This document shows positions 1,454 to 24,447 of a DNA stretch of 47,666 nt, one piece after another. Where the stretch lies: positions 1 through 47,666 of the IMG/VR virus record IMGVR_UViG_3300035682_001161. The stretch is one strand, 5' to 3'. This stretch comes from a virus. The notes below the pieces were generated by a model, which was not told where the DNA came from, did not search any database, and was given only the letters and a program-made list of their open reading frames with translations. The stretch's first letter is position 1. Every line of letters starts with the position of its first letter. The translations under genes were made by a program, and so were the position numbers.

Positions 1454-2584
1454 ATGTCTATAAGACAAATGTTTCCGGGGAGTATTGTTAAGCCGGGGTT
1501 TAATCCTCTAGCGGTTCAGACACCTATCTATACTTACAATTTGTACGGTTGGGGCGATAACTCTTATGGTCAATTAGGATTGGGCAATATAACTAATCGC
1601 TCTTCTCCTAATCAAGTCGGTGCTTTGACTGATTGGTTAAGCATTGTTACTAGATACAGCACATTGGCTTTAAAAACTAACGGGACAATTTGGGCTTGGG
1701 GTAGGAATCAAGCAGGCCAATTGGGACTTGGTAACACTACCTACTATTCATCTCCAAAACAAGTCGGTTCTTTAACAACTTGGTCTGTTGTGGCAACTAT
1801 TAACAATGCGTCTATGGCATTAAAGTCTGATGGAACACTATGGACATGGGGTGGTAATAGTTTTGGCGCATTAGGTCTTGGCGATACTATATCTAGGTCT
1901 AGCCCAGTACAAGTTGGAGCTTTGACCAATTGGGCAAAGATTTCTACAGGTGCAAATTTTGGTGGTTTTGCAATTACAACTAGTGGCGCTTTGTATGGCT
2001 GGGGTTACAACACTTCAGGTGCATTAGGGTTGGGTAATGTCACCAACTATTCGTCACCTAAGCAGGTCGGTTCATTAACTAATTGGTCATCTGTTGTATC
2101 TGGAATACAAAACACTTACGCAATTAAAACAGATGGCACATTTTGGGCTTGGGGTAACGGTAACTATGGGGCATTAGGTCTTGGTAACTCAACATATTAT
2201 TCCAGCCCAAAACAAGTCGGAGCTTTGACCAATTGGTTGCAAGTTTCGGCATCGGAATATTCTGCATTAGCTGTTAAAACTGACGGTACATTATGGTCTT
2301 GGGGAGATGGTGGTTCAGGCGTTTTGGGTTTAGGTAATACAAGCAATTACAACTCTCCCAAGCAGGTTGGTGCTTTAACTGCATGGACTGCTGTAAGGCT
2401 TGGTAAAAACTTTGCTATTGCTTCTAAAACAGACGGAACTATTTGGACTTGGGGAAATAATACTTTAGGTGAATTAGGTTTAGGCAATACAACCAACAGA
2501 AGTTCCCCAGTACAAGTAGGAGCACTTGCCACTTGGGGCTATATTACTGCTGGCGCTCAATCAACTTTTGCCCTAGCTTTCTAA
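1454..2584 (+). CDS. RCC1-repeat beta-propeller protein A1 (putative receptor-binding protein)
   Basis: A 376-residue protein. After an N-terminal segment with KPGFNPLAVQT it carries seven RCC1-type repeats of about 50 residues, each of the form DGTLW.WG.N..G.LGLGNTT.YSSPKQVG.LTNW. Seven WG turns can be counted, so a complete seven-bladed propeller is expected. RCC1 propellers are protein-binding scaffolds. In phage late regions they sit next to tail fibres, so a surface-exposed binding or decoration role is inferred. It has no signal peptide and no catalytic motif. Its head matches that of the gene at 6206 (shared KPGFNPL), making the two paralogues. The following RCC1 gene starts 9 bases downstream and differs in its N-terminal domain. 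Confidence 0.85.
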   Translation: MSIRQMFPGSIVKPGFNPLAVQTPIYTYNLYGWGDNSYGQLGLGNITNRSSPNQVGALTDWLSIVTRYSTLALKTNGTIWAWGRNQAGQLGLGNTTYYSSPKQVGSLTTWSVVATINNASMALKSDGTLWTWGGNSFGALGLGDTISRSSPVQVGALTNWAKISTGANFGGFAITTSGALYGWGYNTSGALGLGNVTNYSSPKQVGSLTNWSSVVSGIQNTYAIKTDGTFWAWGNGNYGALGLGNSTYYSSPKQVGALTNWLQVSASEYSALAVKTDGTLWSWGDGGSGVLGLGNTSNYNSPKQVGALTAWTAVRLGKNFAIASKTDGTIWTWGNNTLGELGLGNTTNRSSPVQVGALATWGYITAGAQSTFALAF

Positions 2585-2593
2585 GAGACAACT

Positions 2594-3766
2594 ATGCCAG
2601 TAACAATCCCCGGCGTTCAATACTCAGGCATCTGGACAATGCAACAGGTGAATGCCGCTATTGCGGCTGGGACTTGGCCTTATATTGAGCCTCCGGGTAG
2701 TCTGTATGCAACGGGCCTTAACAACGCAGGGCAATTAGGCACTAGCAACACAACCTATTTCTCAAGCCCTGTCCAAGTTGGCGCATTAAGCACATGGTCT
2801 AAATTAGCGGCGGCAAGCAATACAAGTGGTGGTATTGCTTCTGATGGCACATTGTGGATGTGGGGCAACAACAATTATGGCGCTCTTGGCTTAGGCAATA
2901 CAACGCAATATTCTTCGCCAAAGCAAGTTGGATCGTTATATTGGTCTAAATTATCCATTGGTGCAAACCTTGCAACGCTTGCTATTAAAAGCGATGGTAC
3001 TTTATGGGCTTGGGGTCGTAATGACAGCGGTAGGCTTGGTCTTGGTAACACAACAGATTATTCTTCCCCCAAGCAAGTTGGTGCATTGACTACTTGGCTA
3101 AGCATATGTTGTGCTTACGAAAGTAGTTTTGCAATTAAAACAGACGGTACGCTTTGGTCTTGGGGTAGTGGAGTACATGGAAGATTGGGTCTTGGTAACA
3201 CCACTTCGTACTCCAGCCCTAAACAAGTTGGTGGTTTAACAAATTGGTCAATGGTTGCGGCACAGGGACAAACTACTCTTGCTATTAAAACTGATGGCAC
3301 ATTGTGGTCATGGGGCCGAGGAAGTCTAGGTGGACTAGGTTTGGGTAATACCACATATTACTCATCTCCAAAACAAGTTGGAACATTAACCAATTGGAGT
3401 TTTGTGGCTGGCGGTTTATTGCGTGGATTGGCTACCAAAACAGATGGTACTTTGTGGGCATGGGGTTACAACAATGAGGGTGCATTGGGTCTAGGCAATA
3501 CAACTGATTATTCATCACCTAAACAAGTTGGTTCTTTAACCAACTGGGCAAAAGTGTATGGTCAAACCAATAACAATTACAGCACCTTAGCTGTTAAAAC
3601 TAATGGCACTTTGTGGTCTTGGGGTAATAATACTTATGGGCAATTAGGTCTTGGTAATTTAACTGGATATTCTTCTCCTAAACAAGTTGGAGCGCAAACC
3701 AATTGGGGCGAAAATCCTAATACTATAGCCATAGGTCAAAACCATTCTGTTGCCACTAGAGTATAA
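2594..3766 (+). CDS. RCC1-repeat beta-propeller protein B1
   Basis: A 390-residue protein whose short N-terminal domain contains PGVQYSGIW and AAGTWP. Seven RCC1 repeats follow; the first is degenerate (LYATGLNNAGQLGTSNTT instead of WG.N). The N-terminal head matches that of the gene at 7335, so this is the B member of a duplicated A-B gene pair. The repeats keep the consensus YSSPKQVG and DGTLW.WG while inter-repeat residues vary, as expected if the scaffold is conserved and loops diverge. It is probably a virion surface protein in the tail region; this is inferred from position. The gene ends 4 bases before the sulfotransferase/GT9 fusion. Confidence 0.85.
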   Translation: MPVTIPGVQYSGIWTMQQVNAAIAAGTWPYIEPPGSLYATGLNNAGQLGTSNTTYFSSPVQVGALSTWSKLAAASNTSGGIASDGTLWMWGNNNYGALGLGNTTQYSSPKQVGSLYWSKLSIGANLATLAIKSDGTLWAWGRNDSGRLGLGNTTDYSSPKQVGALTTWLSICCAYESSFAIKTDGTLWSWGSGVHGRLGLGNTTSYSSPKQVGGLTNWSMVAAQGQTTLAIKTDGTLWSWGRGSLGGLGLGNTTYYSSPKQVGTLTNWSFVAGGLLRGLATKTDGTLWAWGYNNEGALGLGNTTDYSSPKQVGSLTNWAKVYGQTNNNYSTLAVKTNGTLWSWGNNTYGQLGLGNLTGYSSPKQVGAQTNWGENPNTIAIGQNHSVATRV

Positions 3767-3770
3767 ACAC

Positions 3771-5549
3771 ATGAACAAAACACTGCACTTCCTCTCTGGC
3801 ATTCCTCGTTCTGGCTCTACAGTCCTTGCGGCTATCTTGAACCAGAACCCAATGACTCATGTATCCACCACATCTGGGCTTGTCCACGCCCTTGATGGGC
3901 TTGCCAACACATGGCATTCGGCTGGCTTGCTGAACGAAAACGACCCGGAGAGAACAAAGTTAGCGCAGACCATGCGCGGGGCAATTGATGCGTTCTACGA
4001 AGACACTGACAAGCCTGTCATCATCGACAAGTCCCGTGGCTGGCCTATTGGTCAAATTATGGGTGCTATGTCGCAGGTGCTAGGTCGTCAGCCTAAGATC
4101 ATTGCTACTGTTCGCTCAGTGCCTGACTGCGCCGCCAGCTTCATTCGTGTAGCCAAACCCACAGACCTAGACGAGTTCATGGCAACTGGTCAACTGATGG
4201 ATCACCTTAAAGCCGCTTACATTTCCCTCCAAAACGGCTATGAGTACGCACCAGAGAACTTCCTATTTGTTGAGTATGAAGACCTGTTAGCTGACCCCAA
4301 AGCGCAGTTAGCCCGTATCCATGAGTTCTTGGGTCTGCCTGAGTTTGCCTACGACTTCAACAACATTGATGGCTCAAGCGTAGCTGAAGATGATGAAAAC
4401 TTGCACGGTCACGCAGGGATGCACGATGTCAAGCCTGTATTGGCGGCGCAGCATAAGCAAGACCCCCGCGACCTGCTGAAGCACCACTACTCAGCTTTCT
4501 GTCAGCCTGAGTTCTGGCTTGAGCGTCCACGCACAGTTCCTGAGTTGCATGACCTAGACCTACAGCTTGCCGCATCCACAATGGGTGACTTTGCTGAAGG
4601 CTGGAGACTGGCCCAAAAGTTAGAAGCTGAAGAGCCTAGCAACCACCGAGCCGCCTATAACCGTGGCTGGTATTACCTGCGCCAAGGTCAAATCCAAAAG
4701 GGCTACGGTCTGATGGACAGAGGACGAATCGTAGGTGTCTTTGGTAACTCACGCCCTGATGTGCCTACACCCCAATGGGACGGTAAAACAAAGGGTACGG
4801 TCATGCTGTATCTGGAAGGCGGTCTGGGCGATCAGATTCACCAGATTCGCTATGCCAAACTAATTGCAGAGCGTGGCTGTAAGGTGGTTGTTTCCTGTAC
4901 TGGACAACTGGCATCCTTATTCCAAGGCGTAGAAGGCGTATCAGCCGTTGTTCAGCACGAGGCTACCTTTGGTATCTACCACGACTTCTTTGTGTCTGGA
5001 ATGTCTGCTGTAGTGCCTCTAGGCTTAGAAATGCGTGACTTATCTGGTGCGCCATACCTTGAGAAGCCAATGTCGATCAAAGGTCGCAAGAAACGCATTG
5101 GTCTGCGTTGGCAGGGCAACAGTAAGTTTGAGCATGAGCACAATAAGAAATTTCCTTATGAACTCATGTTTGAGGCGGTAAAGGATATTGATGCTGAATT
5201 TGTTTCCCTCCAAAGAGATGAAGGAATGGAAGCGTGTCCAGCTTGGGTTAAGCAAGTCCCCCTGAATACTTGGCAGGATACCCAGCAGGTTGTAGCAGGA
5301 TGCGATCTGGTCATCTCAGCTTGTACCAGTGTGTCACACCTATCGTCTGCCATGGGCGTAGAAACTTGGTTAATAACGCCTGTAATGCCATACTTTTTGT
5401 ATTCCATTGACGGTGACAAGACTCCATATTATGATGCTATGAAGCTGTTTAGACAGAAGACTTATGGCGAATGGTCTGACCCGTTTAACGAGGTAAAAGA
5501 GCAATTGTCACAGATTATTCCTGCCGCTCAATTACGGAGAGTTGCTTGA
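3771..5549 (+). CDS. Sulfotransferase - TPR - GT9 (heptosyltransferase-like) fusion protein
   Basis: A 592-residue protein. Residues 1 to about 230 are a sulfotransferase-type domain: the phosphosulfate loop SGIPRSGST lies at residues 9-17, then a KSRGWP segment and an IIATVRSVPDCAASF helix that would bind the 3'-phosphate of PAPS. A short TPR-like helical linker follows at about 275-320. The C-terminal third has glycosyltransferase family 9 features: EGGLGDQIHQIRYA, KRIGLRWQGN, and DLVISACTSVSHLSSAMG with LITP, the nucleotide-sugar site seen in ADP-heptose transferases and TPR-linked relatives. Activities on glycans or proteins are inferred, and donor and acceptor are unknown. An upstream TTG at 3750 could add seven residues, but the ATG at 3771 starts the P-loop domain normally. 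The next gene overlaps its stop codon (TTGA). Confidence 0.8.
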   Translation: MNKTLHFLSGIPRSGSTVLAAILNQNPMTHVSTTSGLVHALDGLANTWHSAGLLNENDPERTKLAQTMRGAIDAFYEDTDKPVIIDKSRGWPIGQIMGAMSQVLGRQPKIIATVRSVPDCAASFIRVAKPTDLDEFMATGQLMDHLKAAYISLQNGYEYAPENFLFVEYEDLLADPKAQLARIHEFLGLPEFAYDFNNIDGSSVAEDDENLHGHAGMHDVKPVLAAQHKQDPRDLLKHHYSAFCQPEFWLERPRTVPELHDLDLQLAASTMGDFAEGWRLAQKLEAEEPSNHRAAYNRGWYYLRQGQIQKGYGLMDRGRIVGVFGNSRPDVPTPQWDGKTKGTVMLYLEGGLGDQIHQIRYAKLIAERGCKVVVSCTGQLASLFQGVEGVSAVVQHEATFGIYHDFFVSGMSAVVPLGLEMRDLSGAPYLEKPMSIKGRKKRIGLRWQGNSKFEHEHNKKFPYELMFEAVKDIDAEFVSLQRDEGMEACPAWVKQVPLNTWQDTQQVVAGCDLVISACTSVSHLSSAMGVETWLITPVMPYFLYSIDGDKTPYYDAMKLFRQKTYGEWSDPFNEVKEQLSQIIPAAQLRRVA

Positions 5550-6172
5550 CTACAGACGCACAACCATGTCATGTGTACCAAATAACCAATCGGTTAAATG
5601 GTATGCAGTACATTGGCGTGTCCACAAATATCAAGAGGCGTTTTGCATCCCATTGCAGGGATACTAAATCAACTTACAAGTCTCATTTAAATTACGCGCT
5701 GGTTAAGCATGGGTCTAAACAATTTGAATTAAAGACACTGCTTACCAGCACAAGACAGTATTGCTTGGAAATGGAAGCAAAGCTGATTAAAGTTTACAAC
5801 ACATTAACGCCAACTGGGTATAACTACACTGGTGGCAATGATGGGCCAATAGCCGCCCGTAGCGGTGAGCGTAGCCCTATGTATGGTAAGACTGGTGAAC
5901 TGTGTGCGTCATATGGCAAAAAGCATTTGCCAACTTCTATTGAAAAAATGAAACAAGCACATGCTGGCAAGAAAAACAGCATGTATGGGAAAAGCGGCGC
6001 TTTAAGCCCAACTGCCAAATCGTTTGTTGCTATTGACCCATCTGGAATAATTTATAAAAGCAAGAGCCTATCAGCTTTTTCTGAAAAGTATGGACTGTTG
6101 CCATCTGGAATGAAAGCTGTTGCAATTGGCAAAAGAAATCATCATCGCGGTTGGAAGGTTCAATATGTTTAA
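5546..6172 (+). CDS. GIY-YIG homing endonuclease with NUMOD motifs
   Basis: A 208-residue protein. The N-terminal GIY-YIG nuclease domain is seen as VYQITN...GMQYIGVS.NIKRRFASH (residues about 9-35), with the later EAKLIKVYN helix containing the expected metal-binding Glu. Two NUMOD3-like motifs follow (ERSPMYGKTG and KNSMYGKSG), and the C-terminus has a NUMOD1/helix-turn-helix end (SLSAFSEKYGL ... HHRGWKV). This is the typical layout of phage free-standing homing nucleases. The likely start is TTG 5546, overlapping the previous TGA; a GTG about eight codons downstream is an alternative. It separates the two RCC1 gene pairs and looks like a mobile insertion in the late operon. Confidence 0.85.
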   Translation: MTTDAQPCHVYQITNRLNGMQYIGVSTNIKRRFASHCRDTKSTYKSHLNYALVKHGSKQFELKTLLTSTRQYCLEMEAKLIKVYNTLTPTGYNYTGGNDGPIAARSGERSPMYGKTGELCASYGKKHLPTSIEKMKQAHAGKKNSMYGKSGALSPTAKSFVAIDPSGIIYKSKSLSAFSEKYGLLPSGMKAVAIGKRNHHRGWKVQYV

Positions 6173-6205
6173 TCTGTTTAACAAGCCAGCATTGAGGAGT
6201 GTAGC

Positions 6206-7330
6206 GTGAGCTTTAGATATGCCGCTGGGATAAACAAGCCGGGGTTCAATCCGCTTGGCGCTCAGACCAGTAGTTCTACAAGTACATTATTTATTTGGGG
6301 CTATAACAATAAAGGTCAACTTGGTTTGGGCAATATAACTGATCGTTCTTCACCAGTACAGGTAGGAACTTTAAGCGAATGGCTCAATGTTTCTGCTGGT
6401 TATTATTCTAGTGCCGCTGTTAAAACCGATGGAACATTATGGACTTGGGGTGGCAACAGTGTAGGAACTTTAGGATTGGGCAACACTGTTGACTATTCAT
6501 CGCCTAAACAGGTTGGTGCATTGACTACTTGGTACAAAATTGCTGGACTTAAATATTCTTATGCCGCAATTAAAACTGATGGAACCTTATGGACATGGGG
6601 ATATAACCTCCAAGGTCAATTAGGTTTAGGAAATGCTATTAGCCGTTCATCTCCAAATCAAGTTGGTGCATTAACTACTTGGTCAGATATTGCTGGTTTA
6701 GATGTATCTATGATGGCAATTAAAACTGACGGTACTTTATGGGCATGGGGTAATAATACTCATGGTGAATTAGGACTTGGTAATACAACTTCTTATTCTT
6801 CACCTAAACAAGTTGGGTCATTAACTTCTTGGTTAAAAATTGCTGGCGGTACTTATGCATCTTTTGCCATTAAAACCGATGGAACTTTATGGTCTTGGGG
6901 TTGGAATTCTTATCTTCAAGGAATATTAGGATTAGGTAACACCACAGATTATTCTTCTCCTAAACAAGTTGGTGTATTAACTAATTGGTTGTATATTTCG
7001 GCTGGTAACTATCACGCCATATCAACAAAAACAGATGGAACTTTGTGGACATGGGGAGGAAATTCAAGAGGTCAACTTGGTCTTGGTAACACCACAAATT
7101 ACTCTTCGCCTAAACAAGTGGGTTCATTGACAACTTGGTTAAGGGTCGCTGGTGGAGCTTACTCTACGGCTACTGTAAAAACTGACGGAACGCTTTGGAC
7201 TTGGGGTAAGAATGATAGAAGTCAACTTGGGCTTGGCAATACAACTTATTATTCTTCTCCAAAGCAAGTAGGATCACTTACCACTTGGTCTAGACCAGAA
7301 TCTGGATCATTCCATTGTTTGGGTCTATAA
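6206..7330 (+). CDS. RCC1-repeat beta-propeller protein A2
   Basis: A 374-residue paralogue of the protein at 1454, with the same head (AAGINKPGFNPLGAQT) and seven RCC1 repeats. It starts at GTG 6206, eight bases after a clear GAGGAG. One repeat has a three-residue insertion (WGWNSYLQGILGLG), a natural loop extension in a propeller blade. Repeat units are similar at the protein level but use many different synonymous codons, so the duplication is not recent. It is paired with the B-type gene that starts 4 bases after its stop. The role is inferred as tail or surface binding. Confidence 0.85.
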   Translation: MSFRYAAGINKPGFNPLGAQTSSSTSTLFIWGYNNKGQLGLGNITDRSSPVQVGTLSEWLNVSAGYYSSAAVKTDGTLWTWGGNSVGTLGLGNTVDYSSPKQVGALTTWYKIAGLKYSYAAIKTDGTLWTWGYNLQGQLGLGNAISRSSPNQVGALTTWSDIAGLDVSMMAIKTDGTLWAWGNNTHGELGLGNTTSYSSPKQVGSLTSWLKIAGGTYASFAIKTDGTLWSWGWNSYLQGILGLGNTTDYSSPKQVGVLTNWLYISAGNYHAISTKTDGTLWTWGGNSRGQLGLGNTTNYSSPKQVGSLTTWLRVAGGAYSTATVKTDGTLWTWGKNDRSQLGLGNTTYYSSPKQVGSLTTWSRPESGSFHCLGL

Positions 7331-7334
7331 AATC

Positions 7335-8498
7335 ATGGCAACAACGACAATAGTTTCAGGTGTTCAATATTCAGGTATTTGGAACATCAGCAGTCAAGCC
7401 AATGCTAAGGCGGCGGGGACTTGGCCTGTTGGCAGCCCTCAATATTTGTATTCTTGGGGCTTCAACGCCAATGGAGAATTAGGTTTAGGAAATACAGCAT
7501 ATAGATCTTCTCCCAATCAAGTTGGATTATTAGGCACATGGATGTCTTTAAGATGCCTATCAGAAACTTCGCTTGCTGTTCAAAGGAGCGGTACTCTTTA
7601 CGCATGGGGAAAAAATGAATATGGCCAACTTGGTCTTGGTAACATCACTTCTTACTCCAGCCCTAAACAAGTTGGCAATTTAACTAATTGGTCAAAGATA
7701 AGCGGTGGAACTTTTTTTGTAACATCCATTAAAACTGACGGTACTCTTTGGGCGTGGGGTAGAAATAACAATGGTCAATTGGGCCTAGGTAACACAACTG
7801 ACTATTCATCACCAAAACAGGTTGGCGCTCTTACTACATGGTCAAAAATTTCTTGCGGAAGTAATTTAACTTTTGCAATTAAAACTGACGGAACGCTGTG
7901 GGGTTGGGGGAATGGTTTTGCAGGTGGTCTTGGATTGGGTAACACTACAAGTTATTCATCTCCTGTGCAAATTGGCGCTTTAACTAATTGGTTAACAATT
8001 AAAGGAATTGCATACGGTTGCATAGCTACAAAAACCGATGGAACACTATGGGCTTGGGGATATAACACTCTTGGTCAATTAGGTCTTGGTGATACCACTA
8101 ATAGATCATCACCTGTTCAAGTTGGATCATTAACAAATTGGTTAAATATTGTTGGAGGTTCCTACTACACTATTGCCATAAAAACAGATGGTACTTTATG
8201 GGCTTGGGGTAGTAACTCTAGTGGATCATTAGGTCTTGGCGACGCAACCAATAGGTCATCGCCCGTTCAAGTTGGTGCATTAACAAATTGGTCTAATGGT
8301 GGCGTTTCTAGCGTAACTTTTGATTTTGCATTAGCCAATAAAACAGACGGAACTTTATGGTCTTGGGGTAACAATGCAAATGGTCAGTTGGGTTTGGGAA
8401 ATACTAGTTCTTACAACTCGCCCAAACAAGTTGGTTCTTTAACAAACTGGGCAAATATTGCTATTGGCAGTAACTTTACACTTGCAACCGCATCTTAA
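7335..8498 (+). CDS. RCC1-repeat beta-propeller protein B2
   Basis: A 387-residue paralogue of the protein at 2594, with the head TIVSGVQYSGIW...AAGTWP and seven RCC1 repeats (WG turns WGFN, WGKN, WGRN, WGNG, WGYN, WGSN, WGNN). It forms the second A-B pair with the gene just upstream. Having both pairs in the same order implies duplication of a two-gene block, after which the modifying fusion enzyme and the GIY-YIG gene lie between the copies. No enzymatic residues are seen. A ribosome-binding site and a small tail-region gene follow after 28 bases. Confidence 0.85.
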   Translation: MATTTIVSGVQYSGIWNISSQANAKAAGTWPVGSPQYLYSWGFNANGELGLGNTAYRSSPNQVGLLGTWMSLRCLSETSLAVQRSGTLYAWGKNEYGQLGLGNITSYSSPKQVGNLTNWSKISGGTFFVTSIKTDGTLWAWGRNNNGQLGLGNTTDYSSPKQVGALTTWSKISCGSNLTFAIKTDGTLWGWGNGFAGGLGLGNTTSYSSPVQIGALTNWLTIKGIAYGCIATKTDGTLWAWGYNTLGQLGLGDTTNRSSPVQVGSLTNWLNIVGGSYYTIAIKTDGTLWAWGSNSSGSLGLGDATNRSSPVQVGALTNWSNGGVSSVTFDFALANKTDGTLWSWGNNANGQLGLGNTSSYNSPKQVGSLTNWANIAIGSNFTLATAS

Positions 8499-8526
8499 AA
8501 TTAACTTTTTTAACAAGGAGTCTTAA

Positions 8527-8937
8527 ATGACACATTTTGTACAAGTCGTAAACGGCGAAATCAAACAAGTCTGGGATACACCTCCCGCAGAAGGCGTAGG
8601 CAATAACGGCTGGCGCAACGCTGTGGAAGTTCGTCCTGCAATCACAGCACACCGTCAGGGCTACACCGCCCACCGCTTTGATTTGAACACTGATCCAGTG
8701 CAGATCATCTGGGACACATACGAAATCTCCGTGGCTGACCGCAAAAACGGTATGAAGTCCAACGCAGGTTTTGGATTCCAGCAAGTGGTGATGGAGCAGT
8801 CCCGCCTACAGCTTTCTCCTAACGCTAACGAGCAGTACGATGCTACAGCGGTAGAGACAGCGCGTCAGGCTATGTTGACCAAACAAGCCGCTATTGAAGC
8901 TGCTACAACTCACGATCAGCTAGACGCTTTGTTGTAA
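8527..8937 (+). CDS. Conserved phage protein of the tail-fibre region, unknown function
   Basis: A 136-residue soluble protein with a strong AAGGAG before its ATG. The N-terminal half (FVQVVNGEIKQVWDTPPAEG..GWRNAVEVRP) has the look of small phage proteins encoded next to tail fibres, where a host-independent assembly or chaperone role is often suspected. The C-terminal part is helical and Ala/Gln-rich (ETARQAMLTKQAAIEAATTHDQLDALL). No catalytic motif can be seen. Its place after the RCC1 pair and before the sugar cluster supports a tail-assembly link, but that is inference. Confidence 0.55.
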   Translation: MTHFVQVVNGEIKQVWDTPPAEGVGNNGWRNAVEVRPAITAHRQGYTAHRFDLNTDPVQIIWDTYEISVADRKNGMKSNAGFGFQQVVMEQSRLQLSPNANEQYDATAVETARQAMLTKQAAIEAATTHDQLDALL

Positions 8938-8968
8938 ACTGTGTCCTCACACTAAAAAGGGGACTGCA

Positions 8969-9754
8969 ATGAAGAGAATACTGGTAATGGGTTTGCCCGG
9001 TGCGGGTAAGACCACTTTGGCTCAACACATCCTTGACCACTTGCAAGCAGAACGCAAGACGGTCATGTGGCTTAACGCCGATGATGTGCGTAAGAAGTAC
9101 AACGACTGGGATTTCTCCCACGAAGGTCGTATTCGCCAGAGCCTACGGATGCGTGAATTGGCTGACAGCCACGATGTGGACTATGTGATCTGCGACTTTG
9201 TTGCTCCTCTTGTTGAGATGCGTAACAACTTCAAAGCTGACTGGACTATCTGGGTTGACACTATTGACCAAGGTCGTTTTGAGGATACCAACAAAGTATT
9301 TATTCCTCCCAAGGAATATGACTTCAGGATCACTGAGCAAAAGTCTGAGAAGTGGGGTGAGTTCATTGCCGCGCATATTTTGGATGACCGCCGCCGTCCT
9401 GTCTTTGACTGGCAGAAAGAAACAGTTCAGATGCTTGGCAGATGGCAACCTTGGCATGCAGGACACCGCAAGCTGTTTGAACGGGCGCTAGCCAAGACTG
9501 GTCAGGTTGTTATCCAGATCAGAGACTGCCAAGGCTGGAACGGCTCTAACCCGTTTGCTGCCAATCAGGTTAAAGAGTTTATTAGCCGTGATCTAGACAC
9601 TCTGTACCAAGGTCAGTACGAGGTTCAATTGGTTCCTAACATTGTCAATATTACCTACGGGCGTGATGTTGGCTACAAGATTGAGCAGGAATCTTTTGAT
9701 GACGCTACCCATGCTATCTCAGCTACCAAGATACGCAAAGAGATGGGTGTGTGA
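8969..9754 (+). CDS. P-loop kinase (APS-kinase-like) fused to HxGH nucleotidyltransferase
   Basis: A 261-residue protein with two domains. Residues 1 to about 150 resemble adenylylsulfate kinases or related small P-loop kinases: Walker A GLPGAGKTT at 8-16, then VMWLNADDVR and GRIRQSLRMRELA. Residues 157-261 are a nucleotidyltransferase of the cytidylyl/NMN adenylyltransferase type: GRWQPWHAGH carries the HxGH motif and AISATKIR is the second phosphate-binding motif. Such fusions activate a small molecule with a nucleotide. If the first domain is a true APS kinase it could supply PAPS to the sulfotransferase domain at 3771, though the second domain looks more NMNAT-like than ATP-sulfurylase-like, so substrates are open. 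The GTGA at its end overlaps the next gene. Confidence 0.7.
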   Translation: MKRILVMGLPGAGKTTLAQHILDHLQAERKTVMWLNADDVRKKYNDWDFSHEGRIRQSLRMRELADSHDVDYVICDFVAPLVEMRNNFKADWTIWVDTIDQGRFEDTNKVFIPPKEYDFRITEQKSEKWGEFIAAHILDDRRRPVFDWQKETVQMLGRWQPWHAGHRKLFERALAKTGQVVIQIRDCQGWNGSNPFAANQVKEFISRDLDTLYQGQYEVQLVPNIVNITYGRDVGYKIEQESFDDATHAISATKIRKEMGV

Positions 9755-10161
9755 TTGTCTTTACCAACGGATGCTTTGATGTGCTCCACCGTGGGCACGT
9801 TGAGTATCTGGAGAAATCCAAAGCGTTGGGTGAGAAGCTAATCGTAGGTTTAAACTCAGATGCGTCTGTACGGGTACTAAAGCCCGGCAGACCCATTAAT
9901 TCCCAAGATGACCGCATGGCTGTTCTGCTTGCGCTTCGCTGGGTAGATGAGGTCATCATCTTTGATGAGCCTACGCCGTTGCAATTAATCCACAGAATCA
10001 AGCCTGACATCATCACAAAAGGCGGAGATTACAAGCCTGAGCAGGTTGTTGGTTTCACCTTGGTCAAACACACAGTTATCATTCCTTTCCTAGATGGCTA
10101 TTCATCGACAAGGATAATCAATGCAACTCAAGGGTATAGTAAAGAAGGGCTGGGGGTCTGA
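9751..10161 (+). CDS. HldE C-terminal-like (RfaE2) nucleotidyltransferase
   Basis: A 136-residue stand-alone nucleotidyltransferase. VFTNGCFDVLHRGHVEYLE with the HxGH motif at residues 13-16, then GLNSDASVRVLKPGRPIN, DDRMAVLLALRWVDEVIIFDE and KPDIITKGGDYKPEQVVG, are the hallmarks of the HldE/RfaE C-terminal domain, which joins AMP to heptose-1-phosphate to give ADP-heptose. The expected end motif S.T.II is present as YSSTRII. The start is GTG 9751, coupled to the previous stop. It is one of five consecutive sugar-activation genes. Substrate specificity in the phage is inferred from family membership. Confidence 0.85.
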   Translation: MIVFTNGCFDVLHRGHVEYLEKSKALGEKLIVGLNSDASVRVLKPGRPINSQDDRMAVLLALRWVDEVIIFDEPTPLQLIHRIKPDIITKGGDYKPEQVVGFTLVKHTVIIPFLDGYSSTRIINATQGYSKEGLGV

Positions 10162-10483
10162 GCTAATCTGGGCTACCAACGATAAGTACTGCGGGAAGTT
10201 AATGACTTTCCGCAAGGGTGCTAAGTTCTCCATGCACTTCCACGCTGAGAAAGATGAGACTTGGCTAGTCCAAAGTGGTCTGTTCAAGGTTATTTGGATT
10301 GACACCAAAGATGCCAGCCGCCATGAAAAGATCCTTAACGTCGGGGATACATGGCACAACCCACCATTACTCCCTCACCAGCTAGTCTGCCTAGCAGCAG
10401 GTGTGATCTTAGAAGTCTCAACTGCTGATTCCGTGGAAGACAATTACCGAGTGGAAGCGGGGGACAGTCAATGCGTATCCTAG
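10121..10483 (+). CDS. Cupin-fold protein (sugar-phosphate isomerase-like)
   Basis: A 120-residue single-domain cupin. Motif 1 is visible as FSMHFHAEKDETWLVQSG (HxH, Glu and Gly spaced as usual), and motif 2 as GDTWHNPPLLPHQLV, giving a 3-His-type metal site. The opening KGWGSELIW recalls the C-terminal domain of mannose-6-phosphate isomerases. The gene overlaps the end of the nucleotidyltransferase gene by 41 bases and the start of the kinase gene by 13 bases, so translation is coupled. A sugar isomerase or epimerase step is plausible: no GmhA-like isomerase is visible in the window and this protein could take that place. That is speculation from context. Confidence 0.65.
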   Translation: MQLKGIVKKGWGSELIWATNDKYCGKLMTFRKGAKFSMHFHAEKDETWLVQSGLFKVIWIDTKDASRHEKILNVGDTWHNPPLLPHQLVCLAAGVILEVSTADSVEDNYRVEAGDSQCVS

Positions 10484-11181
10484 TCATTGGTGATGCCTGC
10501 ATAGACGAGTATAGGTACGGTGAAATCCGGAGAGTAAATCCAGAATCTACTGCGCCGTTGCTTAACTTTGAAGACAGTGAAGAAAAACTTGGCATGGCGT
10601 TTAACGTGGCTAAGAATCTTAGGTCTTTTGGTGCAGTGGTAGAACTTCTTGTTCCAACTGAAATGTCCCGAAAAATTAGGTACATAGACCGTAGAACAGG
10701 AGAACATCTACTTAGAGTAGACCATGACGTACAAGCTCAATCTTGTTTAGTCGGTAGTAAGTACATGTTTGATGCCATAGTTATTTCTGACTATGACAAA
10801 GGTTTTGTAACTAACGAGGTTATTCAAAAGCTACGCAAACGGTTTAAAGGCCCAATTTACATGGACACCAAGAAACATAACTTGGCTGACTTTGCTGGTA
10901 TCTACATCAAGATTAACGAGCGTGAACTGTTTGAATCTACGTCTATCCCAGATCCAGAACATTTAATTGTTACTTACGGGGCTAAGGGATGTGGATATAA
11001 AGATTCACTCTACCCGGCTAAGGTGATAGAAGTTGTGGATGTCTGCGGGGCAGGCGATGTATTCCTAGCTGCTATGGTCTATAAGCATTTAGAAACTGGC
11101 GACATGGGCCAAGCTTTGCCGTTTGCCAATGAGAAAGCGGCAATATCTTGCCAGAGCATAGGGGCTGTATGCGTATCTTAA
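10471..11181 (+). CDS. HldE N-terminal-like (RfaE1, PfkB family) sugar kinase
   Basis: A 236-residue PfkB-family kinase, shorter than the usual ~310-residue HldE kinase domain, with the lid and part of the central sheet reduced. The N-terminal MRILVIGDACIDEYRYG, then KIRYIDRRTGEHLLRVD and AIVISDYDKGFVT, match the heptose-7-phosphate kinase subfamily. The anion-hole/catalytic motif is VCGAGDVF (GAGD 193-196, base Asp196). In HldE it phosphorylates D-glycero-D-manno-heptose 7-phosphate at C1. The ATG overlaps the cupin stop within the string ATGCGTATCCTAG. Having kinase and nucleotidyltransferase as separate genes differs from the fused enterobacterial HldE. Confidence 0.8.
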   Translation: MRILVIGDACIDEYRYGEIRRVNPESTAPLLNFEDSEEKLGMAFNVAKNLRSFGAVVELLVPTEMSRKIRYIDRRTGEHLLRVDHDVQAQSCLVGSKYMFDAIVISDYDKGFVTNEVIQKLRKRFKGPIYMDTKKHNLADFAGIYIKINERELFESTSIPDPEHLIVTYGAKGCGYKDSLYPAKVIEVVDVCGAGDVFLAAMVYKHLETGDMGQALPFANEKAAISCQSIGAVCVS

Positions 11182-11924
11182 TTACTGGATATAAAGGGTT
11201 TATTGGCCAAAACATGGTCAAAGCTCTGTCAGATCACGACCTAGATCTGTGTGAATGGGGTGATGAGTATTCCCTCTATGGAATAGATAGAGTCATACAT
11301 CTGGGTGCTATCTCAGATACACGATGTCAAGATTGGGTAGCTCTGCGTAAACAGAATGTAGGGTATACCATTACTTTAATGGAGAGGTGTCAGAAGTATG
11401 GGATACCTATTCAGATAGCTTCTTCCGCTTCAGTCTATGGGCCAAACAATACGACGTTTAAAGAGACTGACCCAGTAGCTCCTGCTAATCTATACGCAGA
11501 ATCTAAAGCTCTTATAGAAGAGTACTTTCATACTATGCAACCTGTTGCGCCCATCCAGATATTCAGATACTTCAACGTCTACGGCCCACATGAAGACCAT
11601 AAGGGCGATCAGGCTTCTCCGTTTCATAAGTTCCGCGAGCAGGCAAAGACTGGGACAATTAAAATATTTGAAGGTTCAGAAAACTTTAAACGTGACTTTA
11701 TTCATGTAGATGAGGTCATCAAAGTTCACAGAAAACTTTTAATTTTTCTAGGTTCTGGAATTTGGAACGTAGGAACTGGAAAAACAATGTCATTTTTAGA
11801 CGTTGCTCGCTTGGCAGCAGATGAATTTTCAGCGAAAATAGAGACTATTCCAATGCCTATATTGGGTGGTTATCAAATGTATACGTGTGCTGACATGACC
11901 AAACTAAACGGGATATTAAAATGA
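11169..11924 (+). CDS. HldD-like NAD(P)-dependent sugar-nucleotide epimerase
   Basis: A 251-residue short-chain (extended SDR) epimerase. The dinucleotide motif GYKGFIG is at residues 7-13, followed by SSASVYG and the catalytic Tyr109-x3-Lys113 (YAESK). RYFNVYGP..DHKG..ASPF and EGSENFKRDFIHVDEV are strongly like ADP-L-glycero-D-manno-heptose 6-epimerase (HldD/RfaD), the last step of ADP-heptose synthesis. It is somewhat shorter than HldD (about 310). The start ATG 11169 overlaps the kinase stop by 13 bases; an upstream start would add seven unrelated residues. Residues 187-193 are encoded by one copy of a 20-bp palindrome that recurs three more times in the window. Confidence 0.85.
   Translation: MRILITGYKGFIGQNMVKALSDHDLDLCEWGDEYSLYGIDRVIHLGAISDTRCQDWVALRKQNVGYTITLMERCQKYGIPIQIASSASVYGPNNTTFKETDPVAPANLYAESKALIEEYFHTMQPVAPIQIFRYFNVYGPHEDHKGDQASPFHKFREQAKTGTIKIFEGSENFKRDFIHVDEVIKVHRKLLIFLGSGIWNVGTGKTMSFLDVARLAADEFSAKIETIPMPILGGYQMYTCADMTKLNGILK
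11730..11749 (+). repeat. Dispersed 20-bp palindromic element, copy 1 (inside hldD-like gene)
   Basis: AGAAAACTTTTAATTTTTCT: two 9-base arms around a TT centre with one arm mismatch. It is an exact reverse complement of the copy at 29764-29783 and differs by one base from the copy at 35884. It lies inside the epimerase reading frame (codons 187-194), which it keeps open. Confidence 0.7.
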
Positions 11925-15623: not shown

Positions 15624-15967
15624 GCTTTATTGTTACCACCGATTTTGAGCTTAATAAGGTAGCCGCACCTAATCTGCCCTTGCCTCCAAACGAGTACGAC
15701 CGTTTATATTTTGATCAGATGCTAAACATCTTGCGTCTGTACTTTAACAGGATTGATGCGTTAACCACGCAGTTAATGGCTTCTGGCGTAGTTCCTCCTT
15801 TGACTAACTACACAGTGGCTACTCTACCTAGCGCAGTCACTTCAGGTAAAGGTGCAAGGTCTTTTGTTACTGATGCTCTAGGCCCAGCGTTTGGGGTAAC
15901 TGTTGCGGCTGGCGGGGCTATTGCTGTGCCTGTATATTCTGACGGAACAAATTGGAAGGTCGGATAA
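15620..15967 (+). CDS. Small virion protein with fibre-type C-terminal module
   Basis: A 115-residue protein. Residues about 20-50 (LPLPPNEYDRLYFDQMLNILRLYFNRID) are an amphipathic helix that may trimerise. The C-terminal half (GKGARSFVTDALGPAFGVTVAAGG...PVYSDGTNWKV) is a short beta module that recurs in phage tail proteins and resembles the sequence at the start of the window. It is coupled to its neighbours by a 4-base overlap upstream and a 1-base overlap (TAATG) downstream. It is probably a tail or neck accessory protein. Confidence 0.6.
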   Translation: MSFIVTTDFELNKVAAPNLPLPPNEYDRLYFDQMLNILRLYFNRIDALTTQLMASGVVPPLTNYTVATLPSAVTSGKGARSFVTDALGPAFGVTVAAGGAIAVPVYSDGTNWKVG

Positions 15968-18900
15968 TGGCAGCGCCAACAATGTATAGCGATGAAGAAC
16001 TGTACCAACAGACGGGAAGTTGGGAAGCTGCTGCTGCACGGCGCGATGAGCAAAACAATGCGTTAAACCAATATAACTGGAGTCAACAAGCAGCTTCTAC
16101 TCCTGCTAACACAGGAATTGCATCTCTTGTAAACAATACGCAAGCTGCAAGCCTACCTAGTTACGAAGCCGCGTATAACGCTTTTGGCGGAAAAGATGCT
16201 ACTAATGCCCTGCTTACAACATTAAGGGATATGGGTTTATCTGAAGATGCAATTAATTCTACTTTATCTCCTTACTTCCAAACATTAACAACAATTACAT
16301 CTCCAGTTGTAAGCCCTACTTTTATTGATACAACAGTATTTCCTACTCCGGTAATTACCTCACCTACTCCGGTAGTTACAGTTACTTTACCAACTCCAAC
16401 AGTTACTGAAGTTGCTACAACTGTTACAACTCCGACTACAGACACTGTTACGACTGGCGCAATTGACCAGTCAGTTATTAATCAAATTAATACTGCATGG
16501 GGTAAAGGTGATTATGCGGCAACACGAGACATCCTTTCGACAGCAGGTTTAACTCCTGCACAAATCAAAGCCTACTATGGTTTAGATGATGCAACAATGG
16601 ACTTTGTAATGAGTACGGGTGTATATGCACCTAAAGTTACACCAGTTGTTACCCCCGTTGTTACGCCTGTAGTTACGCCAGTTGTTACTACTGTAGTCTC
16701 AGTAAGCCCTACTGATTTAGTTTCTGTTACGCCAACAGTTTTGACTAGCCCTGCGGTTTTAACTAGCCCTGCGGTTTTAACTAGCCCAACAGTGGTATCT
16801 ATTGACACTCTTGCAGTGACGGGAAGTGATGGAACTTTACTTAATATTCCCGGTTATGGTGAACTAAGTACTTCTACCCTTAATACTTGGGAACCTTGGC
16901 GTTTACAGATGCTGGGTATTACTAAGAATGCTGACGGTACTTTTGCTTATGGCGGCGGCCCAGCTTGGGAAACTACTATAGGAACAACCAATAGAAATTT
17001 ATATGACCAGATAAATAACATCTCTAATCTTCAAGGGATGAATGGTCTGTTTACAGGTGGTGCATTAGAAAGAGATGATGGTGGTCTAGGTTCTAAAGAA
17101 GCTGTTCTGTGGGACTTTGCTAATAAGTTGTCTTCTGAAGGTATTACCAGTCTTGCCGATATTGGTAGGCGTATGGTTACAAGAACCAGAGAAACTGAAC
17201 AAGGCACAGAAGAATATCAAGAAGAAGAGATTTATAACAAGTTAACTGGTAAAACAATTAACATTCAAGGTACTACGTTAGGTAATAACAATACCGACTA
17301 CGGATTTACTTTCACTAACACTGGTTTAGCTATTCCTACAACCAAAGAAGTAAAAGTTGGTTGGGCTGATTTTAAAGAGAACACTCTTCCTTTAATTCTC
17401 ACTGCGGTATCTGTAGCTTTACCAGTCACGGCTCCTTACATTCAAGCATACAACGCTGCCAAAGCTGCACAAAATGGACAGTGGGCTGCTGCTGCATTTA
17501 GTGCATTAGCTTCAGCTTCAGGTTTCTCAGCACAAACTACCGCACAAATTGATGCACTTGCCAAAGCAGGCGACCTTGCTGGAGCGGAACAGCTTTATAA
17601 CAATAGTTGGTTAGCTCAAAATGCTAGCACTATAGGCACAGCAAAAGATGCCGCTTCATTTGTTAATGCAATTGACCAAAAAAACGTAGCAGGCGTTATC
17701 AATGCAGGTATGAACCTAGCAGGTACAACACTGCCACCAGAAGTTCGTACTGCTGTTAATTGGGCAAACTTAGGTAGTGCCATAGCTAACAATGACTACG
17801 CAGGCATGGCTGCTGCGGCCAGTGTATTAACTGGTAGTAGTAATTTAAAGGTAGCTGCCTCGGCACTTAACTTTAAGAATGCTTTAGATTTGTTCGAAAG
17901 AACAGGCAATATGTCTGCTCTAGTTTCTGCTGGTACAAACTTTGGTAATACGATCAAAGGTCTTGGTACTCCAACTACAAATGTTTCACCAACAGTAGTA
18001 GCTGATGGCTCAGACATTGTGGTTGGTATTGATGCTGATGGTAAACCTATCACACTTGATAAGATTGATTCATTATTTACAACAGCATATGAATCTTCTC
18101 CAATTTACGCATCATTAAATAGTGGTGTGTATACAGATGCTGGCACAGGTAAACCCACTGTTGTTGAGATTGAAAATACAGCAGAAGAAGGTCAACCCGG
18201 TTTTGGGTGGAGATACTTCTCTGATGGTACTGTTATATCTCCAACAGGAACATACTATCAAGATAATGAAGTTGTAACATTATCTGAACAAGATAAAGTT
18301 ACATATTTGGCTAGTGCTGCGGCTACCTCTGCTGCTGCTTTATTAGTTCAAAGTCCACAACTTGTTAAAACATTATCAGGTAAAGTTTCTTCTACTGATT
18401 TACCCGGAGTATTAGATACATTAAAGAACTGGTGGGCAATTAATCCAGCATCACAATATACTAATGCAAATCAAGTAGATACTGACGCATTTAGAAGTTA
18501 TTTAAAAGCACAAGGAATATCTGAATCTAATATTGATTATGTTATAGATGCTTCTAAAGTTGCTGTTAATGAGTTAATTAGTAAAACTAATGTAGATGTA
18601 GATACTTCTACAGTAAAAGCTACAGATATTCTTAATACTATTGGTACTAAAGTTGCAGCTACAGAAGCTGATGCAACTATTAGTGCATCTAATATTGTTA
18701 AAGCTCTTAGTGCAGATTCTTTAGCTTTATCTAACGATGCTCAAGTAAAAGCAAAAGCGTATCTTTTAGAACTAGCTCAACGTAGTGGACAAGGCGGATA
18801 TGTTGATGTTAGTTTTATCAATAGTCTTACAAACGCTATTACAAAGACTGCTAGTTCTGGATCAAATAACCCTGTAGATATTGTCAATAATCTACTTACC

Positions 18901-22683: not shown

Positions 22684-24447
22684 ATGAATCTCGTTCAAAT
22701 ACAAGAGCGTTTAAAGGATATGCCTACTCAGGCAATCATGTCCTATGCCAACGGAATGAACCCAGAGGTTCCTCCTTATCTTGCTTTAGGTGAGTTGAAC
22801 CGCCGCAAGCAGATGGAGCAAAAAGCCGTTCAAGCTCCTACTGGTACAGTTAAAGATAATATTGAACAGCAAATGGCTAACATGCAGATGCAGGCAGCTA
22901 AGCAAAGACAGATGGCTCAGCAGATGGCACAGCAAGGTGCTCAAGCTCAGATGCCTGTTCCGCCCGGTGTGCCTGAGCCGCAGATGCAAGCCATGCCAGA
23001 GGACTCTGGAGTGGCAACGTTACCAACCGGAGAGATGAACTTTGGCTCTGGCGGTATTGTTGCGTTTGCCAATAAAGAAGGTAAGCAATTAGTTGAGGAC
23101 GATGAAGATAGAGCAATGAAAGATCTTCAGACTGAAATTGAATATCGGGAAAGGGATGCTCGTCAAAAGAGATTAGAAGCTGATCGTGCAAAAAATATGG
23201 CGATAGTAAATCAGACTTCTGAACGTCCAGTAATGCAGAATGACCCACGTTTAGTTGGTACAACACCTCCTGCTGAAACTCTTGGCACACTTCCACCTCC
23301 TCCTAGAAATGTTCCACCCGGCGGAATAGCTAATGTTGTTCCTCCAAAAGTGATGCAACAGAATGTTCCGCCACCACCACCACCTCAAGCACCTCAGCCG
23401 CCTCAGCCGCAGCAACCTGCGGCACCAGCATCTCCTTTGCTTGACATGCTTAAGACAAGGATTGCTGAAACTGCGCCAGCGTTACCTGACTATGAGACTG
23501 AACGTGCTGCTGCTGCCGTTAAAAATCCTTTGCTAAATATGCAACAGGGTAAAAAGATTGAAGAAGGCATCGCAGGTCTTCGTGCAGGCTACGGCAAACA
23601 GCAAGAAGCCTTTGATAAGAATGAAGAAGCCGCTGCTCGTGCGGCTTTGTGGCAAGGTTTGATTGAAGGCGGTGAGTCTACCCGTGGTATTCGTGGTAAA
23701 GGTCTAGCTGGATTAGGTACTGGTGCTGGTAAGTCCTTCCTAGCTTCTATGGCAGGTGCCCGTTCCCGCGAGATGGCTCAACAAGAGTTAGTTACACAGC
23801 GTAACTTTAACCTTACTAAGATGGAGAATGAGCTTGAGAGTGCCCGTATTGCTGAAGCAAAGGGTGACTTTAATACTGCATACGGTCACAAAATGAAAGC
23901 TGCTGAGTTTAAACAGAACGCTGTTAAAGATCAGAATCAGTTAATTAGCCAAGGCGCTCAGGTTGAGAGTGCTGACAACCGCGAAATGATGCGTCTGCGT
24001 AATGAAAAAGAGTTGGCAGATATACGTTCACGTAATGATAGAGAATTGGCCCAGCTTAAGTTTAAATACGAGAAAGAACTTAAAGGTATCCCTCAAGCGC
24101 AACGTGCTTCTTTTGAAGAGCAGTTTGTTGCAGAAGCTGTCAAAGCTGGTATACCTAGATTGGATGCTATGCGTGAGGCTAAGAATCTTGGAAAACCTAG
24201 AGACCAACTTACTTACGCCCAAGCTGCGGATGATGTAGATAATTTCTTAAAGAGTACCCAAGGTATGACTTATATTGCAGGCTTAAACAAAGCTGCAAAA
24301 GAAAAAAAAGAACCTATGCTTGATTCTTTTACCATTCGTAAGAATCTTATTGAACAACAAATGCAACAATCAGGTAGCAGTAATGCACCTAAAGCAAAAA
24401 ATAATGACCTGCTAAAAGCAGCGGATGCAATTGTTGGAGCAAAGTAA
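22684..24447 (+). CDS. Internal virion protein, Gln/Pro-rich and coiled-coil
   Basis: A 587-residue protein. The start MNLVQIQERLKDMPTQAIMSYANG..PEVPPYLALGELNRR is shared with many phage proteins encoded near ejection proteins. It continues with a Gln/Met-rich helix (MQMQAAKQRQMAQQMAQQGAQ), a charged coiled coil (about residues 135-180), a proline-rich linker (PPPPPPQAPQPPQPQQP) and a long helical C-terminus (ELESARIAEAKGDFNTAYGHKM; EFVAEA-like helices). A role as an internal or tail-tip protein is inferred from order. The stop overlaps the ATG of the following giant gene by one base. Confidence 0.55.
   Translation: MNLVQIQERLKDMPTQAIMSYANGMNPEVPPYLALGELNRRKQMEQKAVQAPTGTVKDNIEQQMANMQMQAAKQRQMAQQMAQQGAQAQMPVPPGVPEPQMQAMPEDSGVATLPTGEMNFGSGGIVAFANKEGKQLVEDDEDRAMKDLQTEIEYRERDARQKRLEADRAKNMAIVNQTSERPVMQNDPRLVGTTPPAETLGTLPPPPRNVPPGGIANVVPPKVMQQNVPPPPPPQAPQPPQPQQPAAPASPLLDMLKTRIAETAPALPDYETERAAAAVKNPLLNMQQGKKIEEGIAGLRAGYGKQQEAFDKNEEAAARAALWQGLIEGGESTRGIRGKGLAGLGTGAGKSFLASMAGARSREMAQQELVTQRNFNLTKMENELESARIAEAKGDFNTAYGHKMKAAEFKQNAVKDQNQLISQGAQVESADNREMMRLRNEKELADIRSRNDRELAQLKFKYEKELKGIPQAQRASFEEQFVAEAVKAGIPRLDAMREAKNLGKPRDQLTYAQAADDVDNFLKSTQGMTYIAGLNKAAKEKKEPMLDSFTIRKNLIEQQMQQSGSSNAPKAKNNDLLKAADAIVGAK

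Follow-up and report, generated by a model that had tools for sequence, protein, structure and literature searches.

We analysed an IMG/VR virus record of 47,666 bases (hereafter the window, whose positions serve as gene coordinates). Our subject is a cassette in which a sulfotransferase-glycosyltransferase fusion gene lies among genes for RCC1-repeat proteins, with five further genes downstream, three of which have heptose enzymes as nearest relatives. A preliminary description of this DNA had placed a 592-residue protein at 3771 and five consecutive, overlapping genes at 8969-11924. All six open reading frames (ORFs) are found there, and the five genes overlap at 9751/9754, 10121/10161, 10471/10483, and 11169/11181. 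About 30 close viral contigs contain orthologs of the window genes, with low ratios of non-synonymous to synonymous substitution rates (dN/dS ~0.01-0.16 where measured). The ORFs are therefore not due to chance: they are genuine genes, on which purifying selection acts strongly. No tRNA genes were found in the 47,666-base window. The features of the cassette are the following:

1454..2584 (+): RCC1-repeat beta-propeller protein, 376 residues, proposed fibre protein and acceptor (hidden Markov model (HMM) family common to the other RCC1 genes; PHROG RCC1, 1.8e-51; weak matches to tail-protein PHROGs)
2594..3766 (+): RCC1-repeat protein, 390 residues, proposed acceptor, immediately 5' of the fusion gene (PF00415, 3e-65)
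3771..5549 (+): fusion protein, 592 residues: sulfotransferase (~1-255), tetratricopeptide repeat (TPR)-like linker (~257-315), GT9-like GT-B glycosyltransferase (~340-592) (PF13469, 1e-16; AlphaFold; Foldseek)
6206..7330 (+): RCC1-repeat protein, 374 residues, proposed acceptor (RCC1 HMM family)
7335..8498 (+): RCC1-repeat protein, 387 residues, proposed acceptor (RCC1 HMM family)
8969..9754 (+): fusion of an APS-kinase-like P-loop kinase and an NMNAT-like nucleotidyltransferase (PF01583; NCBIfam; PHROG 10255, 3e-52)
9751..10161 (+): HldC/HldE-C-like nucleotidyltransferase (TIGR02199, 4.9e-49)
10121..10483 (+): cupin (Cupin_2) with an HxHxxKxE motif, candidate aldose-ketose isomerase (Pfam; alignment of relatives; PDB profile matches)
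10471..11181 (+): HldA/HldE-N-like PfkB kinase, shortened, 236 residues (TIGR02198, 3.4e-31; PDB 4e84, HldA, by profile)
11169..11924 (+): HldD-like ADP-heptose 6-epimerase homolog, ATG at 11169 (TIGR02197, 2.9e-57; motifs)

A conserved RCC1-glycosyltransferase-sulfotransferase neighbourhood

Across divergent phages, a conserved neighbourhood brings together genes for RCC1 propellers, for a TPR-GT9-like glycosyltransferase, and for a sulfotransferase. Two scans for the glycosyltransferase returned 79 close loci and, in a second, divergent scan, 80 loci (loci are designated L plus a number). RCC1 genes are present in the fetched stretch of 78 of the 79 close loci and stand directly beside the glycosyltransferase in 74, mostly overlapping it or only a few bases away. 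Among the divergent loci, 66 carry RCC1 genes and 61 a sulfotransferase. Clustering at 50% identity yields 20 glycosyltransferase lineages, 19 of which have RCC1 within 5 kb; the sulfotransferase is fused in one (the window's clade) and a separate gene in 13, and the heptose-type module of nucleotidyltransferase, cupin, kinase, and epimerase lies near the glycosyltransferase in eight. Without the glycosyltransferase, the module is seen in 52 loci that span 10 kb or more, and these contain zero RCC1 and zero sulfotransferase genes. In a set of 66 divergent loci with the module, RCC1 occurs in five, and the glycosyltransferase in exactly the same five (Fisher 1e-7, a value that overstates the case for reasons given below).

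Individual genomes illustrate this arrangement. For example, the marine single-cell virus AG-345-E08 (L005) has separate sulfotransferase and glycosyltransferase genes flanking RCC1, and the heptose-type module lies further along. In the cultured phage S-SRM01, a baseplate wedge gene is followed by a long tail fibre distal subunit, RCC1, a hypothetical gene, RCC1, the TPR-glycosyltransferase, a 2-oxoglutarate (2OG) oxygenase, four hypothetical genes, RCC1, and a sulfotransferase. Its three RCC1 proteins are gp335, gp337, and gp344. Similarly, in cultured BUCT-ZZ01, which grows on Synechococcus elongatus PCC 7942, the order is tail fibre, hypothetical gene, RCC1, TPR-glycosyltransferase. The partners also evolve at different rates: the RCC1 gene at 2594..3766 is 53-63% identical in relatives (dN/dS 0.2-0.4), the fusion 93-95% in the closest ones, and across the window clade the fusion has a dN/dS of 0.07-0.15 and the neighbouring RCC1 genes show 52-66% identity with a dN/dS of 0.2-0.4. 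Such a pattern would be expected if a conserved enzyme acts on recognition proteins that change quickly. When the N-terminal segment of one RCC1 protein served as query, a single phage was matched, in a lectin-domain protein.

Other genes accompany these neighbourhoods. In AG-345-O18 (L004:1395-5305), the protein that precedes a sulfotransferase is not RCC1 but a repetitive, kelch-like one of 1017 residues, and the heptose-type module lies shortly downstream. Oxygenases of the 2OG-Fe(II)/prolyl-hydroxylase-like kind are repeatedly seen in L005, L008, and L372, adjacent to the glycosyltransferase, to RCC1 genes or to the module. In the window, a GIY-YIG/NUMOD3 homing-type endonuclease gene (5546-6172, +) separates the fusion gene from the next RCC1 gene, with a relative in the same place in L018 and L024 and none in L013, L015, and L020. 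A second possible homing endonuclease lies near the RCC1 cluster at 548-1051 (+; HNH_3, 3e-11, with a weak AP2 match).

Fold and relatives of the fusion protein

The architecture of sulfotransferase, TPR-like linker and GT9 domain put forward for the protein at 3771 is supported, the last part as a GT9-like fold. Residues 7-190 match Sulfotransfer_3 (PF13469, 1e-16; 62.1 bits, above the gathering cut-off of 27) and residues 267-310 show a weak Pfam TPR match; translation might instead start at the in-frame TTG at 3750. Pfam GT9 (PF01075) has no match in the window protein at E<1. Of 61 viral relatives of the glycosyltransferase, 14 match it weakly (best E 0.0044), and it is the commonest family among their matches. 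A phmmer search of the C-terminal half against the PDB found no match, and the profile of the 61-relative alignment found a TPR match only. The AlphaFold model of residues 258-592 (nucleotides 4542-5546), based on that alignment, reached a pLDDT of 93.9 and a pTM of 0.92; a model of the whole 592-residue fusion with 11 close relatives reached a pLDDT of only 47. The best PDB matches of the modelled half in Foldseek are T. terrenum O-GlcNAc transferase (OGT, first), TibC, WaaF, WaaC, Arabidopsis SPY, and a Veillonella GT9 protein. TM-scores are modest (0.28-0.54); to TibC, WaaF, WaaC, and 3tov they are 0.43-0.54, with E-values of ~1e-5 to 3e-4. The C-terminal half is thus modelled as a TPR plus GT-B fold closest to OGT, TibC, WaaF, and WaaC, which supports a GT9-like fold. 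Furthermore, the aspartate of a GGxGD motif is present in all 60 aligned relatives at the place of the GT9 catalytic aspartate (matched by motif, not by superposition), which is D110 in TibC (PMC4358343), and the N..F..H.(K/R) segment of the next lobe has a basic residue, K or R, in 60 aligned relatives.

Bacteria are already known to glycosylate surface proteins by means of TPR-glycosyltransferases, and there are reports of glycosylated phage virions. TibC heptosylates autotransporters, which are surface proteins (PMC4358343). The BAHT autotransporter heptosyltransferases (TibC, Aah) share a GT9-like GT-B fold with the phage enzyme, which differs in its TPR and sulfotransferase domains and in having a donor that is predicted only. 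The 335-residue C-terminal sequence of the fusion contains no CxxC pairs that would correspond to the four-cysteine iron finger of TibC. In Caulobacter FlmG, flagellins are bound by the TPR part and modified by the glycosyltransferase part (PMC7591256). FlmG resembles the fusion in architecture, with an N-terminal TPR, a C-terminal GT-B domain and a filament-protein target (PMC7591256), but it adds pseudaminic acid and has no sulfotransferase. A search of 61 Caulobacterales genomes gave matches in eight, and FlmG was not identified among them. Bacterial TPR/GT9-like proteins of Azospirillum and of Caballeronia plasmids are ~31-35% identical to the phage glycosyltransferase of L040 over most of the length of the latter. 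Neighbours of some bacterial relatives include filamentous haemagglutinins (FHA) in Caballeronia, a giant Ig-like protein in Azospirillum, and a 2,510-residue serralysin-type protein; in the cases read, the neighbouring putative acceptors are not RCC1 proteins.

The heptose-type module and the APS-kinase-like protein

The nucleotidyltransferase, kinase, and epimerase are each, independently, nearest to the heptose enzymes HldC, HldA, and HldD, as the preliminary description had proposed. Their best NCBIfam matches are TIGR02199 (HldC/RfaE domain II, 165.9 bits), TIGR02198 (HldA/RfaE domain I, 108.5 bits), and TIGR02197 (HldD, 194 bits), with equivalog cut-offs of 181.5, 345, and 274.6, respectively. 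Against the PDB, the kinase profile has HldA (4e84) as best match at 3.3e-26, the next being at 1.8e-11. The kinase has 236 residues versus 315 in the family (~80 fewer); its GAGD catalytic motif is invariant, and intact in the window, and the NQQ..R.D motif of HldE is kept in several cyanophage relatives and reads GEH..RVD in the window clade. The epimerase sequence contains the motifs YxxxK, HKG, and FEGSENFKRDF.

The preliminary description had also noted that GmhA and GmhB are missing. This stands for the window, which contains no SIS GmhA, no HisB-type GmhB and no mini-HAD, but some relatives carry a small putative HAD phosphatase in the module, and the cupin may replace GmhA. Among 30 module-bearing records, none has a SIS-type GmhA and few a HisB-type GmhB. 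The reaction that yields D-glycero-D-manno-heptose 7-phosphate from sedoheptulose 7-phosphate belongs to the aldose-ketose isomerisations, like that between fructose and mannose. The cupin has an HxHxxKxE motif plus a downstream histidine common to ten relatives, and the best PDB matches of its profile are a general cupin, L-ribose isomerases, and D-lyxose isomerase, with oxalate decarboxylases and other cupins almost equally good. As the motif is that of aldose-ketose isomerases, some of which are among the best matches, and the GmhA step is such an isomerisation, the cupin may, judging from its sequence, stand in for GmhA. As for GmhB, cyanophages encode a small protein of 107-118 residues labelled 'phosphoheptose isomerase':

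L002:7719-8063, L003:7658-7993, with equivalents in L006, L007, L008, and L009: small HAD-type proteins (DID(G/N)T motif; PDB 9iqw)

Since these proteins have the DID(G/N)T HAD motif and their profile matches a solved 'capsule biosynthesis protein' (PDB 9iqw, 3e-17), they are candidate phosphatases and not GmhA, and their label is apparently a misannotation. In L020, a relative of the window, a mini-HAD gene lies between the cupin and kinase genes.

The first of the five genes had been described as a kinase-nucleotidyltransferase fusion belonging to an HldE-type pathway; the fusion is confirmed, the pathway assignment is not. The first 90 residues are APS kinase-like (PF01583, 2e-10; 41.2 bits, gathering cut-off 21.1), with 29.6 bits to TIGR00455, below its cut-off of 138.7, and the protein is NMNAT-like from residue ~150. 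A profile of nine relatives matches APS kinase (1e-12) and NMN adenylyltransferase (5e-8). In several loci without the heptose module, the APS-kinase-like gene, sometimes its kinase half alone, lies at most 10 bases from a sulfotransferase, which suggests a part in sulfation; membership of the heptose pathway was set aside for this reason, and the protein probably acts outside it. Phages of Stenotrophomonas, Xanthomonas, and Clavibacter encode the APS-kinase/NMNAT fusion as well (L029:6995-7735, L030:5998-6729). As its neighbours in the Stenotrophomonas phage are NADAR, MazG, and methyltransferase genes, and as its nucleotidyltransferase half is NMNAT-like, a role in NAD metabolism is equally possible. 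The idea of a minimal 3'-phosphoadenosine 5'-phosphosulfate (PAPS) synthetase, based on a GRD motif, is unsupported, as the nucleotidyltransferase half matches NMNAT and not ATP sulfurylase.

No such complete phage module was thought to be known, a view that does not hold: the heptose-type module is present in annotated cyanophages (P-SSM2, S-SSM7, S-CAM1) and in hundreds of viral contigs. Kinase relatives were found in 35 phage records, mostly cyanophages, and a profile scan of IMG/VR found at least 583 kinase-family relatives among 600 stretches examined. Of 61 loci whose flanks around the kinase were long enough, the nucleotidyltransferase is present in 59, the cupin in 57, the epimerase in 51, and the HAD protein in 15. 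The closest known counterpart is the cyanophage carbohydrate cluster T4-GC 303-308 (P-SSM2, S-SSM7, S-CAM1, Sf-FS3; also P-TIM68 and S-T4). Like the window, it has an HldE-C-like nucleotidyltransferase, a PfkB kinase and a cupin in all six phages and the epimerase in most; unlike the window, it has the small HAD-type protein, and its kinase is ~36-43% identical. It adjoins tail-fibre genes in P-SSM2 and S-CAM1, and cyanophage versions lie among further glycosyltransferases, carbamoyltransferases, and oxygenases. What the window has in addition is the RCC1/fusion unit and the APS-kinase/NMNAT protein. The bacterial ADP-heptose pathway (GmhA, HldA/HldE, GmhB, HldC, HldD) provides the nearest families of the window kinase, nucleotidyltransferase, and epimerase; the window differs from it in having a cupin in place of the SIS GmhA, no HisB-type GmhB, and scores below the cut-offs. 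A scan of genome contigs for the kinase returned mostly ordinary HldE-type kinases (25-32% identity), the phage-type ones being on contigs of metagenome-assembled or single-amplified genomes that are possibly viral. In P-TIM68, a transketolase-like gene (L007:4847-5992) lies directly upstream of the kinase; as transketolase makes sedoheptulose 7-phosphate, this is a hint to the module's substrate.

Proposed fibre decoration and its alternatives

We consider it fairly probable that the cassette serves self-decoration, the phage's own RCC1 fibres being glycosylated and sulfated. By analogy with FlmG and TibC, the TPR segment would hold newly made RCC1 fibre proteins in the cytoplasm while the GT-B domain moves a sugar from a nucleotide donor onto them, and the sulfotransferase would sulfate either these proteins or the sugar they have received, ahead of incorporation of the fibre into the virion. 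With less assurance, we suggest that the downstream set makes an ADP-heptose-like donor from sedoheptulose 7-phosphate through the cupin isomerase, the PfkB kinase, a phosphatase (host-supplied here and phage-encoded in some relatives), the nucleotidyltransferase, and the epimerase, and the APS-kinase-like protein may aid PAPS supply. The module is tied to the glycosyltransferase less firmly than RCC1 is. The most specific version, in which a compact GmhA-free ADP-heptose pathway (cupin, short PfkB, mini-HAD, HldC, HldD) feeds a TPR-GT9-sulfotransferase that heptosylates and sulfates RCC1 fibres, as a phage counterpart of autotransporter heptosylation, appears unlikely to us.

Several observations weigh against fibre decoration or its heptose version. 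RCC1 proteins are taken for virion proteins from gene position and weak tail PHROGs; for those of a jumbo coliphage a role in DNA organisation was suggested instead (PMC7247149). As RCC1-linked members served as seeds of the search profiles, loci of the same virus lineage lack independence and many stretches are fragmentary, p-values for the RCC1 linkage are too favourable. One bacterial relative of the glycosyltransferase lies near a glutamate dehydrogenase gene and not an adhesin. The module kinase is absent from S-SRM01 and BUCT-ZZ01 and from 19 of 22 fusion records, several of these at least 50 kb long; the donor therefore need not be heptose, and the fixed link between fusion and heptose pathway assumed in the preliminary description is not supported. 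Finally, the donor-site DTG-type aspartate of GT9, which we take to be WaaC D261, contacting heptose, is replaced by cysteine in 58 of 61 relatives, so that the donor may be heptose or another sugar. TibC uses Trp-305 and the Pro-300 carbonyl.

The absent kinase and the replaced aspartate, together with the fact that most module loci have no glycosyltransferase, favour separate systems: the RCC1/glycosyltransferase/sulfotransferase unit would use a host-supplied sugar on fibres, and the heptose-type module next to it would serve another glycan. We find this quite possible, although the module does lie near the glycosyltransferase in 8 of the 20 lineages. It is rather doubtful that the kinase, nucleotidyltransferase, epimerase, and cupin make a nucleotide sugar other than ADP-heptose. 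All three heptose-like enzymes score under their equivalog cut-offs, the kinase is short with GEH at the NQQ-type motif, and SIS-type GmhA is absent from the 30 module-bearing records, all of which would fit another sugar; yet heptose enzymes are the nearest relatives of all three, independently. Modification of the host envelope for receptor masking had been offered beside the phage's own repeat-rich proteins as the target. In this reading the enzymes would act on lipopolysaccharide (LPS) or capsule during infection, for masking or for superinfection exclusion, and RCC1 adjacency would be incidental. WaaC and WaaF, both GT9 enzymes, act on LPS, and the cyanophage module has the company of other carbohydrate-modifying genes described above, but RCC1 linkage in 19 of 20 lineages supports the phage's own proteins and the TPR-glycosyltransferases resemble protein glycosyltransferases (PMC7591256). 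Moreover, marine Synechococcus LPS is reported to be heptose-free (PMC4515613), so virion modification fits the cyanophage versions better. Envelope modification is an explanation we think unlikely.

The occurrence of relatives in hundreds of viral contigs suggests that phages of the window's kind chemically decorate their own fibres. A limited literature search for phage, sulfotransferase, glycosyltransferase, and RCC1 jointly found no relevant paper; the heptose-like module itself is known from annotated cyanophages. If fibre decoration is correct, phage enzymes add sugar and sulfate to the fibres, which probably make contact with the host, in many environmental phages, and host-range studies on bare recombinant fibres would overlook it. 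Phage RCC1 proteins, at present filed under DNA metabolism, would gain a function, as would the heptose-like genes of many cyanophages whose hosts' LPS reportedly has no heptose. The central claim is testable in two cultured phages, S-SRM01 and BUCT-ZZ01.

Three genes outside the cassette complete our observations on the window. A GT34-like glycosyltransferase (3e-5) fused to a methyltransferase-like domain (30266-31519, -) is a second sugar-transfer candidate of this phage. The 1591-residue protein at 15952-20727 (+) has a long V-T-P repeat run in its second half, and the first 818 residues of the 1772-residue protein at 24447-29765 (+) match PHROG 2206, virion RNA polymerase (2.7e-12).

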